42,487 bases of DNA, taken from a virus. How positions within the stretch are numbered: position 1 is the first letter of the stretch; every line of letters starts with the position of its first letter. The DNA is taken from positions 1 through 42,487 of IMG/VR virus record IMGVR_UViG_3300023180_000126; one strand, 5' to 3'. The position numbers and the translations under genes were made by a program. Shown piece after piece: positions 4,820 through 39,697 of the stretch. Under the pieces are notes generated by a model. It did no database searches. It was not told the DNA's origin and saw only the letters and a list, made by a program, of their open reading frames with translations.

Positions 4820-7800
4820 ATGGCTTTAACATCACCAGGAGTAGAGGTTTCAGTAATAAACGAGAGTTTCTACGTACCATCAGATGCGGGTACAACACCA
4901 CTATTCATAGTAGCATCATCACAGGACAAGACCAACGGAGCGGGAGACGGAACTGCGTCAGGCACAACAACGGCCAACGCCAACACTGCGTACTTGATCT
5001 CGTCACAGAGAGAATTGACAGAAACTTTTGGAGATCCAAAATTCTACACAGACACAGCAGGAAATTCACTACACGGTTATGAATTGAATGAATGGGGTCT
5101 ACAAGCGGCATACTCATTTTTGGGTGTGGCCAACAGAGCATATGTTTTAAGAGCCAACGTTGACACTTCACAATTAATTGGAAGTGCTTCGGCTCCAACC
5201 GCAACACCAACAGATGGCACATACTGGTTTGACCTTGCATCTACCAGTTACGGTATCTTTCAGTGGAGCCAAACTGATCAGAAATTCACAACAATCACAC
5301 CAACTGTTATCACATCAACAAATGATATTGACCTGAGTTCACCTTTAAGAAAGCCAAAATCTAATATTGGAAGTATAGGTAATTACGCTATCAACACCAC
5401 ACACGTTTCAAATAGAATCTGGTACAAAAATTCAAGCAACACCTGGGTACAAGTGGGATCAAGCGCATGGCACTTATCACATCCTGTCATCACAGTTGCT
5501 TCAGGTACAACAGTGACAAGCGGTCACTCCATGTACGTGAACAGTGTTCAAGTTTCAGTAAGCGGCACAGCACTTTCAGATGTGGCTACAGCATTCACTA
5601 ATGCCAATGTTCCTGGAGTATCAGCAAGTGTCAACGCTACCACAGGCAATCTAGAAATCTTCCACAATGGTTTAGGTTTCAGTGATTCTTCTGTGGAAAG
5701 CGACAACACAATCAAGTTTCAAGCAGGTACAGGCACACTACTAAGTGACTTGGGGATCACAGCACAGACTTACAACGGTGTTAAATTCCTGCAGGCCAAA
5801 CACACCAACAGACCAACATGGAAGACAGCAGACGAAGACAGACCCAACGGTTCGGTTTGGTTCAAGACAACCAATGCCAATGCGGGCGCCAACATCGTTG
5901 CCAAACTATACAGCTCGTCAAGTGCTAGTTTTGGAACAGTGTCTGCTCCATTGTATGCCACAAACCATTCAGCGATCTACAACCTAGATCCATCGAACGG
6001 TGGTACAGGATTGACTGCTGGCACACTTTACACACAGTACAACATCACTGAACAATCAGTGGACGGACAGTCAGACATCACACCAAACGTGGGCGACTTC
6101 CAACTGTTCAGATACGAAGGTGGACAGACTATAATAAGTTCTAAGACCACACATCCAACGTTCACGCACAACGAGACATTCACAGTGAGAGAATCCGTGA
6201 AGACCCAAGAAGCGTTGGCGGCGGCCAAGACAGTTACAATCCAATCAAGTGATGGATCAACACTGGCTGACAAGGAAGACTTCGTGACGGCATTCACAGC
6301 CGCAGGTTTCACGAACCTAGAAGCGTCTATAATCACAGCAGGTGAGTACACAGGCGCCATACAGATCAAACACAAACTGGGTGGTGACTTCAGGATGAAC
6401 AACACATCAGGAACTCCACTAGACGACGCAGGATTCGGTACCAGTGACGCACACAGTTACGGTGGATACACTGCTAACAGCACAACACTGGTTGATAACT
6501 TGTACGTGGCACCATTAGGTGACTCGGAAGACTCGACAGTGGGTAACGAAGTTATCGCTACAAACTGGAAGAGATTGAGCTACACTGCTTCAACAAGTGC
6601 TCCTACCAATGAGCCAACAGATGGCACACTTTGGTATGACACCAAGATTGACGAAGCAGACATCATGGTACACAACGGAACAACTTGGGTAGGATACCTA
6701 AATCAATACGCTACCACAGATCCAAATGGTCCACAGTTCAGTGCCACAGCACCGACTACACAGTCAGACGGAACAGCACTGGTCACTAATGACTTATGGA
6801 TTGACACAAGCGATCTTGAGAACTATCCAAAACTCTACAGATACAACACATCTGCCACACTAAGTTCAAGCAACACAGCAAACCAAGTGGTTGTCACCAC
6901 GTCGGGTGCGGCCTGGGAATTAATCGACAAGGCAGATCAGACCACAGAAGACGGAGTTGTCTTCGCAGATGCTAGATGGCATACTTCAACAGACAGGAAT
7001 GCCAACAACAGCACACAGGCGGGCACTGCTTCAACAATCAAGAATCTTTTAAGTGACAACTTCATAGATCCAGATGCTCCAGACCCAGCACTTTACCCAC
7101 AGGGTATCATGCTGTGGAACACTAGGAGAAGTGGTTATAACGTGAAAGAATACAGAAACAGTTACATAACAACGACTGCTTATCCTGGATCGGGTTCATC
7201 AGGATTGGGTAACATCAGATACAACAACGAATCAGTTAGTGGTTACTACCCAGACAGATGGGTCACCAAGTCAGGCAACAACGCGGACGGTTCTGGCACT
7301 TTCGGAAGGAAAGCACAGAGAAAAGTCATCGTGGCACAACTGAAATCTGAGATAGACACGAACCAAGCGATCAGAGAGGACCAAAGGGGTTACAACGTGA
7401 TTGCTTGTCCTGGATATCCAGAACTGATACAGAACATGATCAACCTAAACACCGACAGGAACAACACGGCATTCGTTGTTGGTGACACACCAATGAGATT
7501 GGCCGGCACAGCAACGGCAATCACGAACTGGGCAAACAACACGGCGGCCGCCACAGACAACGGCGAGGACGGTCTTGTTAGTTCAAGTGATTACTTAGGA
7601 GTGTTCTATCCTTCAGGATCAACCACAGACAACACGGGTAAAACCATTGTTGTTCCACCAAGTCACATGATGATGAGGACACTGGCGAACAACGACAACA
7701 TCGCTTTCCCATGGTTCGCTCCAGCAGGAACAAGACGTGGAGTTGTTGACAACGCCACATCAGTAGGTTACATCAACGCCACATCAGGCGAATTCCAAAT

Positions 7801-8251
7801 AATATCTGTTACGGAGTCAGTGAGAGACTCGATGCACAACGTGAAAGTTAATCCGATCACATTCTTCTCAGGAGCGGGCATCGTGAACTTTGGTAACTTG
7901 ACCAAGACATCGGCAAGTTCAGCAATGGACAGGATCAACGTTTCAAGATTGGCAGTGTATCTGAGAACACAACTGGATGCTATCGCTAAACCGTTCATCT
8001 TTGAACCAAACGATGAGTTGACAAGGAATGAGATCAAACAAGCAATCGAGTCATTCTTGCTAGAGCTTGTTGGTCAGAGAGCGTTATACGACTTCCTAGT
8101 AGTCTGTGATGACACCAACAACACACCTACCAGGATCGACAGGAATGAACTGTACGTGGACATCGCGATCGAACCAGTGAAATCGGTCGAGTTCATCTAC
8201 ATACCGTTAAGAATCAAAAACACAGGAGAAATTGCAAAGTTAGGGAACTAA
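4820..8251 (+). CDS. 18: Tail sheath protein gp18-like, greatly enlarged
   Basis: Contractile sheath subunit. The N-terminus MALTSPGVEVSVINES and the C-terminal part (from ~833: KVIVAQLKSEIDTNQAIRED, later YVDIAIEPVKSVEFIYIPLR) are clear gp18 landmarks; the ends form the conserved inner sheath core that contacts the tube. At 1143 residues it is nearly twice T4 gp18 (659). The excess lies between ~120 and ~830 and holds repeated short modules of the form TDGTxWxD ... W/YxN: about residues 125-160, 328-375, 590-628 and 643-710. Such surface-exposed insertions probably decorate the outside of the sheath. Strong SD and its own late promoter indicate very high expression. Followed directly by gp19. 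Confidence 0.92.
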   Translation: MALTSPGVEVSVINESFYVPSDAGTTPLFIVASSQDKTNGAGDGTASGTTTANANTAYLISSQRELTETFGDPKFYTDTAGNSLHGYELNEWGLQAAYSFLGVANRAYVLRANVDTSQLIGSASAPTATPTDGTYWFDLASTSYGIFQWSQTDQKFTTITPTVITSTNDIDLSSPLRKPKSNIGSIGNYAINTTHVSNRIWYKNSSNTWVQVGSSAWHLSHPVITVASGTTVTSGHSMYVNSVQVSVSGTALSDVATAFTNANVPGVSASVNATTGNLEIFHNGLGFSDSSVESDNTIKFQAGTGTLLSDLGITAQTYNGVKFLQAKHTNRPTWKTADEDRPNGSVWFKTTNANAGANIVAKLYSSSSASFGTVSAPLYATNHSAIYNLDPSNGGTGLTAGTLYTQYNITEQSVDGQSDITPNVGDFQLFRYEGGQTIISSKTTHPTFTHNETFTVRESVKTQEALAAAKTVTIQSSDGSTLADKEDFVTAFTAAGFTNLEASIITAGEYTGAIQIKHKLGGDFRMNNTSGTPLDDAGFGTSDAHSYGGYTANSTTLVDNLYVAPLGDSEDSTVGNEVIATNWKRLSYTASTSAPTNEPTDGTLWYDTKIDEADIMVHNGTTWVGYLNQYATTDPNGPQFSATAPTTQSDGTALVTNDLWIDTSDLENYPKLYRYNTSATLSSSNTANQVVVTTSGAAWELIDKADQTTEDGVVFADARWHTSTDRNANNSTQAGTASTIKNLLSDNFIDPDAPDPALYPQGIMLWNTRRSGYNVKEYRNSYITTTAYPGSGSSGLGNIRYNNESVSGYYPDRWVTKSGNNADGSGTFGRKAQRKVIVAQLKSEIDTNQAIREDQRGYNVIACPGYPELIQNMINLNTDRNNTAFVVGDTPMRLAGTATAITNWANNTAAATDNGEDGLVSSSDYLGVFYPSGSTTDNTGKTIVVPPSHMMMRTLANNDNIAFPWFAPAGTRRGVVDNATSVGYINATSGEFQIISVTESVRDSMHNVKVNPITFFSGAGIVNFGNLTKTSASSAMDRINVSRLAVYLRTQLDAIAKPFIFEPNDELTRNEIKQAIESFLLELVGQRALYDFLVVCDDTNNTPTRIDRNELYVDIAIEPVKSVEFIYIPLRIKNTGEIAKLGN

Positions 8252-37265: not shown

Positions 37266-37707
37266 AAAATTTTTTGATTTGAGGAATGGTCTTAAGGCCG
37301 TGGACTTTAGGAACAAAGACTACTTTGACAGGATAGACGACAAGGAGCAGTCATTGTATTCACCTTACATGCTGATGAGGTATGTATCGAGCTGTTCTTC
37401 CAAGGATCGTTTCTACGTGGAACATTACGTGGAGATGATCAATGAATGTGTTAATAAAAACATGAAAGAGCTATCATGGTACAAAAATCATAAAAAATTA
37501 TCTTGGATATTAACTTCTATGTGTGGTTCTCTGCAACAGCAGTTTCATCCATTTATTAAACCCATGAAGAGAGTTACAAATAAAAGTTTAGAAAAATTAT
37601 CAAAAATATATCCACAATGGCACATAGATGATTTAGAAGCACTAGACAAAATATTAACTGATCGAGAACTAGAGGAACTACTTGAAGAGCATGGCATCAA
37701 CGAATAA
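37246..37707 (+). CDS. Probable clamp-loader small subunit, gp62-like
   Basis: A 153-residue helical protein. FDLRNGLKAVDFRNKDYFD, then YSPYMLMRYVSSCSSKD (38-54), a long helix, FHPFIKPMKR and DDLEALDKILTDRELEELLE follow the order of the gp62 family in marine T4-like phages (LKAINxTKxxLF ... YxPYxxNxxLS ... FxPWxK ... LxxxELxxLxxxL). gp62 holds gp44 subunits to load the gp45 clamp. However, key residues differ (M-L-M-R for I-N-K/R), and gp44 and gp45 are not in this window. The alternative is an unrelated replication protein. AT-rich 3' half. Confidence 0.45.
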   Translation: MPAEKNRKFFDLRNGLKAVDFRNKDYFDRIDDKEQSLYSPYMLMRYVSSCSSKDRFYVEHYVEMINECVNKNMKELSWYKNHKKLSWILTSMCGSLQQQFHPFIKPMKRVTNKSLEKLSKIYPQWHIDDLEALDKILTDRELEELLEEHGINE

Positions 37708-38374
37708 ATGCACATACTGTGGCAAGGAGTTCGCTAAGGAAAGAACCTTGCAGGTACACCTGTGTGAACCCAAACGCAGATATCTACAACGAGATGAGAA
37801 GTGGGTGGTCAACGCATTCATGGTGTTCCAGAGATTTTATCAGATACACCAACACAACTCCAAACCTAAGACATACGATGATTTTGTCAAGAGCGCATAC
37901 TACAATGCGTTCGTTAAGTTTGGCAGATACATCATGCATATCAACCCATTGTATCCAGACAAGTACATAGACTATGTGCTACGATCAAAGATCAAACTAG
38001 ACCACTGGGCTAGAGATGATCTATATGAGGAGTACCTGATAGAAACTTTGAAGTCAGAGCCGGTAGAATCGGCCTTGCAACGTAGCATAGCGACAATGAT
38101 GGACTGGGCTAACGAACAGAACGCACAGTGGAGTGACTACTTCAGATTGGTCAACACCAATCGAGCAGTGCAACACATACAACAAGGTGCGATAAGTCCA
38201 TGGCTACTGTTAGGTTGCAGTGCAGGAAAGAAAATGTTAAAATCATTTAACGACGAGCAACTACAGATGATAGAGAGATTCATAAACCCAAGTTTCTGGC
38301 CAAGCAAGATCAAGAGCTATCCAGCAGACCTATTGTTGGTTCAGGAGACGGCTAGGGAGGCCAAGATTGTCTAA
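37691..38374 (+). CDS. Zinc-finger protein of unknown function in the replication cluster
   Basis: A 227-residue protein. CTYCGKEFAKERTLQVHLC gives a C2HC finger (C7, C10, H23, C25) with the classic C2H2-like spacing and hydrophobic core (F14, L20). After the basic PKRR comes a long helical domain (WVVNAFMVFQRFYQIHQHNS, YNAFVKFGRYIMHINPLYPD, AISPWLLLGCSAGKKML). Start ATG 37691 is 17 bases inside the gp62-like gene; a TTG three codons earlier is the alternative. Likely nucleic-acid binding. It is followed by the TTG-started small gene with a strong SD in its 3' end. Confidence 0.65.
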   Translation: MASTNKCTYCGKEFAKERTLQVHLCEPKRRYLQRDEKWVVNAFMVFQRFYQIHQHNSKPKTYDDFVKSAYYNAFVKFGRYIMHINPLYPDKYIDYVLRSKIKLDHWARDDLYEEYLIETLKSEPVESALQRSIATMMDWANEQNAQWSDYFRLVNTNRAVQHIQQGAISPWLLLGCSAGKKMLKSFNDEQLQMIERFINPSFWPSKIKSYPADLLLVQETAREAKIV

Positions 38375-38600
38375 GATTGATCTAGAGATAGCGGACAATT
38401 TGGATTTCGAAGACGGGGACTGTGCGGTGGTAATCAAAGAAGACGGATCAATAGGAAGGGTGATTATGCCAGACATCAACAGGAATGTTCTTGATTCAGA
38501 AGGATACAGGAAACTGTTAGACGTACTAGAAGTTTTACAGCCGGGATCACGTGACAAGATGATACAACATGCTGAAAAAGGCAAAGGGAGTATGCACTAA
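38367..38600 (+). CDS. Small acidic protein with TTG start
   Basis: A 77-residue protein. The only start that covers the frame is TTG 38367, supported by an excellent Shine-Dalgarno AGGGAGG (38354-38360) six bases upstream, one of the few in this region. It overlaps the zinc-finger gene end. CAVVIKEDGSIGRVIMPDI is a strand pair and SEGYRKLLDVLEVLQP a helix. Its stop shares a base with the next ATG, coupling it to the polymerase-like gene. Function unknown; it may be a chaperone or partner of that protein. Confidence 0.65.
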   Translation: MSKIDLEIADNLDFEDGDCAVVIKEDGSIGRVIMPDINRNVLDSEGYRKLLDVLEVLQPGSRDKMIQHAEKGKGSMH

Positions 38601-39190
38601 TGCCTGATGTAGATATAGACTTCTTCGACAGGGACGGGGTGCTGAAACTTTTCAAACACACACCGGCATCGATGATCAAAGATGGCAAGACCGAAAAACA
38701 CAAGACGGGAGTTTACTTCCATGCTGTTCCTGAACACCCAGTGACTGGAAACTCATCGTTAGATTACAAGAAGGCCGAGGACAGAGGATATTTCAAGATA
38801 GACATGTTGAACGTGAACATATACAAAGAAGTCAAGTCAGAGCAGGAACTGGTAGAACTAATGATACAGGAGCCAGATTGGGACATGCTGAAGGATCCAA
38901 AGACCGTGGAGAACCTTTTCCACCTAAATGGACACTTCAATATAGTGTCAAAGTTAGAGCCAAAGAATATCGAACAACTGGCCGCAGTGTTGGCCATAAT
39001 ACGTCCCGCCAAGAGGCAGTTGATGTACAAAGACTGGCAGGACATAATGAAGGAAGTGTGGACTAGACCCACAGACGGCTCATACTTCTTCAAGAAGTCA
39101 CACGCTATAGCCTATGCACAGGCCATAGTGGTACAGATGAATCTCATTACGAGAGCTAAATATAGTTTTGATGCTACATCAAAAACCTAA
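38600..39190 (+). CDS. Miniature DNA polymerase III alpha (C-family) palm-like protein
   Basis: A 196-residue protein that can be aligned by eye to scattered blocks of the ~1160-residue DnaE. MPDVDIDF (1-8) matches the DnaE motif MPDFDVDF, with D5 and D7 as the metal-binding pair. EKHKTGVYFHA (32-42) matches the GKHAGGVVIA block. RGYFKIDMLNV (62-72) matches the GLVKFDFLGL block, keeping the third aspartate (D68). VENLFHLNG...LEPKNIEQLAAVLAIIRPAK (103-138) matches the fingers segment before LFRPGP, and FFKKSHAIAYA (163-173) matches GFNKSHSAAYA. The PHP, most fingers, beta-binding and OB domains are absent. It may be a tiny polymerase, nucleotidyltransferase or decoy. Coupled to the TTG-started gene. 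Confidence 0.7.
   Translation: MPDVDIDFFDRDGVLKLFKHTPASMIKDGKTEKHKTGVYFHAVPEHPVTGNSSLDYKKAEDRGYFKIDMLNVNIYKEVKSEQELVELMIQEPDWDMLKDPKTVENLFHLNGHFNIVSKLEPKNIEQLAAVLAIIRPAKRQLMYKDWQDIMKEVWTRPTDGSYFFKKSHAIAYAQAIVVQMNLITRAKYSFDATSKT
39155..39162 (+). promoter_or_regulatory. Late-promoter-like octamer before the 51-residue gene
   Basis: GCTAAATA lies eight bases (TAGTTTTG) before the ATG at 39171, inside the end of the polymerase-like gene. Confidence 0.5.
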
Positions 39191-39326
39191 AAAAAAGATA
39201 CCCAAACATCCTAGTAAAAAACATCGCAGTCCAACTCGCTCCGAGCTCGGATCATACCAAGCCAACAATCCATTGACCAAGTACGTGGAAAGAGTCAATG
39301 GAATAAACTGTACTGAGAAGAACTAG
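39171..39326 (+). CDS. Small basic protein (51 residues)
   Basis: Starts MLHQKPKKKIPKHPSKKHR, strongly basic, and ends SYQANNPLTKYVERVNG plus a short tail with one cysteine. It is short, but a late octamer eight bases before the ATG matches the pattern of known late genes, and the NPLTKYVERVNGI end is reminiscent of a small conserved protein in marine T4-like phages. The basic N-terminus suggests DNA or RNA binding. Overlaps the polymerase-like gene by 20 bases and the convergent gene by four. Confidence 0.6.
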   Translation: MLHQKPKKKIPKHPSKKHRSPTRSELGSYQANNPLTKYVERVNGINCTEKN

Positions 39327-39697
39327 ACTGGTTTGCGGACCAATTGGATTGTCCTACGCTTGACGCGTTTCTTTGAGATATCAGAAAGTCTCACAGTTGG
39401 TCCATGCACTATCTCAACATCCTTAGAGTTCAAAGTGACTAGTGTGGTCCTGAAATACTTGAACTCACCTTTGAGGAATATGTTAATGGGCAGTTTACGA
39501 TTGGACTCGTGCCACCAGGTCTCGCCACATTTAAGGTATCTCATCTTGTCCTGTGGTAGCATCAATCTACCGTAATCATAGAAACTGATCACGTTGGTGT
39601 CCTCGTTCTGTATTATGCCCACGTACTCCAGATCGCCCTTTCGGATCAGGCTCAGGAAAGGGAATTTATCCCTTAATGTGTTAAAAATTTCGTTCAT
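39323..39697 (-). CDS. Conserved small protein of marine T4-like phages, unknown function
   Basis: A 124-residue protein. NVISFYDYGRLMLPQDK, ETWWHESNRKLPINIFLKGEF (split over 59-79) and KDVEIVHGPTVRLSDISKKR are segments I remember from a core cyanophage protein with no assigned role. The C-terminus is very basic (KKRVKRRTIQLVRKPV). It is the only minus-strand gene between uvsW and gp41. The SPOT of basic residues and conservation fit RNA or DNA binding; not proven. Confidence 0.65.
   Translation of the reverse strand: MNEIFNTLRDKFPFLSLIRKGDLEYVGIIQNEDTNVISFYDYGRLMLPQDKMRYLKCGETWWHESNRKLPINIFLKGEFKYFRTTLVTLNSKDVEIVHGPTVRLSDISKKRVKRRTIQLVRKPV

Follow-up and report, generated by a model that had tools for sequence, protein, structure and literature searches.

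The window (the whole 42,487-nucleotide stretch of viral DNA that was analysed) encodes a 196-aa protein with homology to DnaE, the DNA polymerase III alpha (Pol III alpha) of bacteria, across the palm and a portion of the fingers. In related phages, a separate gene encodes a complementary protein of ~170 aa. The two, here called the C-half and the N-half, probably constitute a two-gene minimal Pol III alpha whose chains associate without splicing and most likely add nucleotides beside the family B DNA polymerase gp43. The case for a split enzyme is made by sequence homology, invariant residues, boundaries that complement each other, the joint occurrence of the halves in relatives and purifying selection. 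From these we infer that the halves associate physically and catalyse a reaction, what their substrate and role are, and that the phage of the window has the partner as well.

Homology of the C-half to Pol III alpha

The 196-aa protein matches PHROG_11778 ('DNA polymerase') at E 6e-67. When the single sequence was used, the Pfam finger domain PF17657 was found only below threshold (E 0.0047) and Pol III alpha was absent from the PDB search. The weak matches to triosephosphate isomerase in that search were rejected as noise, since Pol III alpha appeared instead once a profile was used. With a profile of 116 sequences, all nine PDB hits at E ≤ 10 were Pol III alpha, aligned in collinear pieces, the best at E 0.0078. 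Comparison with nine DnaE sequences by hhalign gave E 1.1e-8 for the local alignment and a probability of 98% for the global one, while the minimum E among 20 column-shuffled controls was 0.16. The alignment covers only E. coli residues 399-406, about 506-642 and about 750-778.

The AlphaFold model of the protein had a pLDDT of 92.6 and a pTM of 0.76, and it matches both Taq and E. coli structures. The top 14 Foldseek matches in the PDB were without exception C-family enzymes, either Pol III alpha or PolC, at probabilities of 0.57-1.00, with a best E of 1.3e-3, TM up to 0.49 and a large rmsd, the last because the C-half chain has deletions. Among viral matches, the named ones at the top were DnaE-like polymerases. 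Profile homology and structural matching thus bear out the suggestion, made in an earlier note on this DNA, of a miniature Pol III alpha active site. None of the outcomes that the note had set against itself (no palm fold, no C-family hit, unconserved aspartates) occurred: the profiles do hit the C family, the predicted structure matches Pol III alpha and the aspartates do not vary.

All five DnaE blocks that the earlier note had picked out are present, in DnaE order, and the DxDxD, HxxGV, KxD, RP and K-S-H motifs are shared with E. coli DnaE (NP_414726.1). In contrast to that enzyme, the C-half contains, on alignment, no PHP domain, no N-terminal palm with GRGS, no thumb, no complete fingers and no clamp-binding or OB domains; everything before E. 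coli residue 399, residues 643-750 of the fingers and the C-terminus are gone. In total about 83% of DnaE is missing (196 versus 1160 aa), close to the 80% estimated earlier.

Table 1. Positions of the genes and motifs discussed in the text
Feature	Sequence	Coordinates	Strand	Remarks
Tail sheath protein (phrog_10581)	Window	4820-8251	+	1143 aa, unusually long
230-aa protein (phrog_11058)	Window	37682-38374	+	N-terminal C2H2-like zinc-finger motif; unknown function
77-aa acidic ORF	Window	38367..38600	+	TTG start; overlaps polymerase start codon (TAATG)
C-terminal half of proposed split minimal DNA polymerase III alpha (PHROG_11778)	Window	38600..39190	+	196 aa; begins MPDVDIDF; ATG shared with stop of preceding ORF
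DVDID, residues 3-7	Window	38606..38620	+	D3 and D5 = E. coli D401 and D403 (metal ligands); D7 = D405
KHKTGV, residues 33-38	Window	38696..38713	+	H34, G37 = E. coli H511, G514; H, G 100% invariant
K66-I-D68	Window	38795..38803	+	E. coli K553 and third metal ligand D555; 100% invariant
IRPAK, residues 134-138	Window	38999..39013	+	R135, P136 = E. coli R639, P640; R, P, K 100% invariant
FKKSHAIAYA, residues 164-173	Window	39089..39118	+	H168 = E. coli H760; H 100% invariant
Opposite-strand gene (phrog_11637)	Window	39323-39697	-	Directly 3' of C-half
N-half, gp373	RaK2	148852-149370		Between gp52 and gp44
C-half, gp411	RaK2	115150-115791		Between UvsW and gp61/gp41
560-aa DnaE	L064	14130-15812
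560-aa DnaE	L012	13130-14809		Also in L026, L037, L071, L077, L134

Catalytic residues and selection

In E. coli DnaE, D401, D403 and D555 bind the metals, and D405 is an extra aspartate that is conserved in DnaE and not in PolC (PMC3919608). The earlier note correctly held that the three catalytic aspartates are kept, and they are invariant, but it numbered them D5, D7 and D68; the metal ligands should read D3, D5 and D68, D7 being the counterpart of D405. Among the matches listed, 241 unique relatives were collected, with a minimum pairwise identity of 26% and about 121 clusters at 80% identity. D3, D5, D7, H34, G37, K66, D68, R135, P136, K138 and H168 are invariant in this set; one of the 241 lacks its N-terminus at a contig end, and DVDID is invariant wherever the sequence covers it. 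Of these blocks, RP and KSH (IRPAK and FKKSHAIAYA) alone were among the patterns of the collection scans. The aspartates, H34, G37 and K66 were not, so that their lack of variation does not stem from how those scans selected sequences. K138 is specific to the family and is given no E. coli DnaE equivalent.

The distance from D5 to D68 is 63 residues, against 152 in E. coli, which agrees with the earlier figures of ~60 and ~150; the spacing is short because the thumb (E. coli about 406-505) is missing. Residues that are invariant in full DnaE and lie within the deleted parts (E. coli R396, Y686-E688 and R709) are gone, and the enzyme may therefore not act as an ordinary template-directed polymerase.

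The C-half gene is under strong purifying selection, with dN of about 0.004-0.08 and dS of at least 0.55 against close relatives, and pN/pS of 0.01-0.12. Across 346 loci, its open frames ranged from 111 to 258 aa (the 111-aa frame being a partial match), and none was fused to other DnaE domains.

A separately encoded N-half carries the GRGS motif

R362, G363 and S364 of the E. coli GRGS nucleotide-binding motif (361-364) are invariant in DnaE, and the motif is not in the C-half chain, which starts at E. coli 399. When genomes with the C-half were searched with PF07733, 15 of 16, including all 10 isolate phages, proved to have another small open frame, with E values of 1e-8 to 1e-13 and at a genome position apart from that of the C-half. 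These N-half proteins (PHROG_11127) have about 161-184 aa, match PF07733 positions about 13-95 and terminate near an EFL[KR]-type motif. Their profile aligned to E. coli 321-394 at E 8e-11 (shuffled minimum 0.046), and their R-G-S motif is invariant. The N-half homology ends at E. coli 392-394 and the C-half homology starts at 399; thus, the two genes match complementary stretches of DnaE, with the cut between residues 394 and 399. The length and sequence of the two products leave no room for an intein in either. In several isolate relatives, as in RaK2, the C-half gene lies between UvsW and gp61/gp41.

Distribution and co-occurrence of the two halves

The C-half was found in 90 records of sequenced phages, in 89 of which the match spans at least 80% of the query. 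Carriers include RaK2, 121Q, CBB, GAP32, PA5oct, Atu_ph07, Phosso, XacN1, SCTP-2, Vibrio 2.275, RAS14 and Slickus01. A tblastn search with the RaK2 N-half also gave 90 phage records. The two sets were compared by host tallies, not accession by accession, and these were, for N-half/C-half, Escherichia 34/34, Pseudomonas 11/11, Salmonella 8/8, Erwinia 8/8, Xanthomonas 3/3 and Klebsiella 10/11. The circular 141-kb genome of Alishewanella phage Slickus01 (L089/L385) carries both halves and is well under the 200-kb jumbo limit.

Five IMG/VR scans each confirmed at least 570-596 relatives among about 600 candidates listed, and the C-half family is therefore abundant in environmental viromes. Both halves were present in all six contigs of at least 340 kb (G001-G004, G037, G038). 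Of 21 contigs with the N-half, the three of at least 270 kb all had the C-half and the 18 shorter ones did not, which is expected for distant genes on fragments. The N-half was not found in two C-half contigs longer than 220 kb (G005, 222 kb, and G009, 292 kb), both of which may be incomplete. The earlier note was right that this type of phage carries a B-family polymerase as well: gp43 was present in 10 of 10 isolate relatives with the C-half, but was not found in the window, whose end falls within gp41, nor in fragments of 30-91 kb from its subclade.

The window's own lineage

The window belongs to an environmental subclade whose C-halves are 37-55% identical to those of isolate phages. The N-half was not found in the 42-kb window or in its subclade, in which the longest contig searched was 91 kb. 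Genes shared with that contig (G007) gave no close match linking contigs with the N-half to the window's lineage. Because the subclade contigs extend to at most 91 kb, with no canonical N-half and no closely shared linking gene, it is only by extension from the relatives that we infer a partner here.

The small acidic gene said to be coupled to the polymerase gene is indeed there (77 aa, pI 4.7, with the TAATG overlap), but as a companion it is confined to the window's kind: its relatives, in at least 143 fetched loci, were all of that kind, and none was found in isolate phages. Environmental contigs, and 7 of 10 isolate loci examined, keep the zinc-finger gene phrog_11058 ahead of the C-half, on its upstream side, and an opposite-strand gene at or near the position of phrog_11637 also occurs in the isolate relatives examined.

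Several subclade members encode a 560-aa DnaE without a PHP domain about 5-6 kb downstream of the C-half (Table 1). It has MTRGS, DVDID and KVD, with motifs of the palm, thumb and fingers, and matches PHROG_405 at E 1e-68, as an ordinary DnaE would. In close relatives such as L008 it was not found within 8 kb of the C-half. The 560-aa protein was considered as the partner or as an unsplit ancestor; with this score and this distribution, it was rejected as the general partner. If present in the window's genome, it would sit just past the window end.

Proposed enzyme and alternative readings

In the enzyme that we propose, the C-half would bring the metal ligands D3, D5 and D68, together with K66 and shrunken fingers, and the N-half, encoded far off, would bring the GRGS nucleotide-binding half of the palm. 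The halves are predicted to associate without protein splicing, which would rebuild a two-metal active site; its most likely activity is the addition of nucleotides at the end of a primer in phage replication, recombination or repair, alongside gp43. To judge by the neighbouring genes, the pair would synthesise DNA next to gp43, during either recombination-dependent replication or repair. With the thumb and the Y686-E688/R709 region missing, normal processive polymerisation by the pair should not be taken for granted. If the proposal is right, a working two-chain polymerase with neither thumb nor PHP domain would show how few parts the bacterial replicase fold needs and would bear on the origin of Pol III. 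Recognition of the two genes as complementary halves, with the aspartates corrected, makes a simple co-expression test possible with genes from RaK2, 121Q or other well-studied phages.

The Pol-beta fold superfamily has many non-polymerase members, and the reconstituted pair might be an active nucleotidyltransferase of this fold whose substrate is not primed DNA, with template-free tailing, nucleotidylation of protein or RNA, or production of a nucleotide signal as its activity. Loss of the thumb and of the part of the fingers with Y686-E688 and R709 would fit such an enzyme. However, the positions of the genes, the C-half between UvsW and gp61/gp41 in several isolates and the RaK2 N-half between gp52 and gp44, point to DNA replication or recombination, and we regard this reading as unlikely, if worth keeping in mind. 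To a bolder form of the split-enzyme proposal we give a rather low probability: the pair would be the smallest known C-family polymerase (~170 + 196 aa, neither active alone), free of inteins, thumb and PHP domain and working beside gp43, and in the window's lineage the N-half would have disappeared or given way to another protein, such as the nearby 560-aa PHP-less DnaE.

Phages often carry decoys, and the C-half, with its thumb, much of its fingers and its NTP-binding motif gone, could be taken for a catalytically inert scaffold derived from DnaE that binds and diverts host Pol III, tau, the clamp loader or DNA. The earlier note had raised a decoy for tau or the clamp loader. There is little chance of this, as the C-half lacks the DnaE regions for binding tau, the clamp and epsilon (PHP). 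The metal-ligand aspartates, K66 and H34, for which a decoy has no use, stay the same in all 241 sequences, although identity among these falls to 26%; moreover, the complementary GRGS half co-occurs. Even less probable is a stand-alone active miniature enzyme in need of no partner, a form of which, a self-contained nucleotidyltransferase, had also been put forward. The AlphaFold model of the C-half alone is compact and of high confidence, and the window holds no partner gene, but the GRGS half of the palm, with a motif invariant in DnaE, is absent from the chain and is carried in relatives by a co-occurring, separately encoded protein whose homology to DnaE stops where that of the C-half starts. 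Finally, the loss of about 83% of DnaE might suggest that the gene is a decaying piece of a full-length dnaE or an artefact of assembly. This is refuted by its independent relatives, which number in the hundreds and have kept length, locus and residues, and by the strong purifying selection.

Relation to described enzymes

A split minimal Pol III alpha has already been described, from sequence alone, in group 2.2 jumbo phages by Iyer et al. (2021, PMC7824862), who predict that the halves reconstitute the full catalytic site, conjecture a role in the synthesis of one strand or in repair, and suggest the split form as a model of the ancestral enzyme. No experimental test of it was found in open-licence full texts. 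The C-half studied here is the same one, by sequence, gene order and residues, and it fits the published small C-terminal chain, in which palm strands bind Mg and a further part binds the template. In relatives it likewise stands alongside a family B polymerase; the window adds an abundant environmental lineage to the published enzyme. This subclade differs in its divergence from the isolates (37-55% identity), in having its own acidic gene, in that the partner has not yet been seen in it, and in a third, PHP-less DnaE of about 560 aa that some of its members have. The full-length DnaE proteins of other phages, such as those of Streptomyces, Mycobacterium and Pseudomonas, share the C-family catalytic residues, but are far longer single chains; their alignment takes in the N-terminal region and the greater part of E. 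coli DnaE.

CBB_328 (172 aa, PMC5259590) and Atu_ph07 gp316 (PMC6102473), published as truncated or predicted Pol III alpha, are members of the same split enzyme. They were considered as equivalents of the 196-aa protein and rejected, as size and/or position near gp44/gp52 would assign them to the N-half instead. The annotations can mislead here: the proteins reported as Pol III alpha are probably N-halves, and C-halves have been deposited as 'putative membrane protein' in CBB (one GenBank record), GAP32, Erwinia and Muenster phage records.
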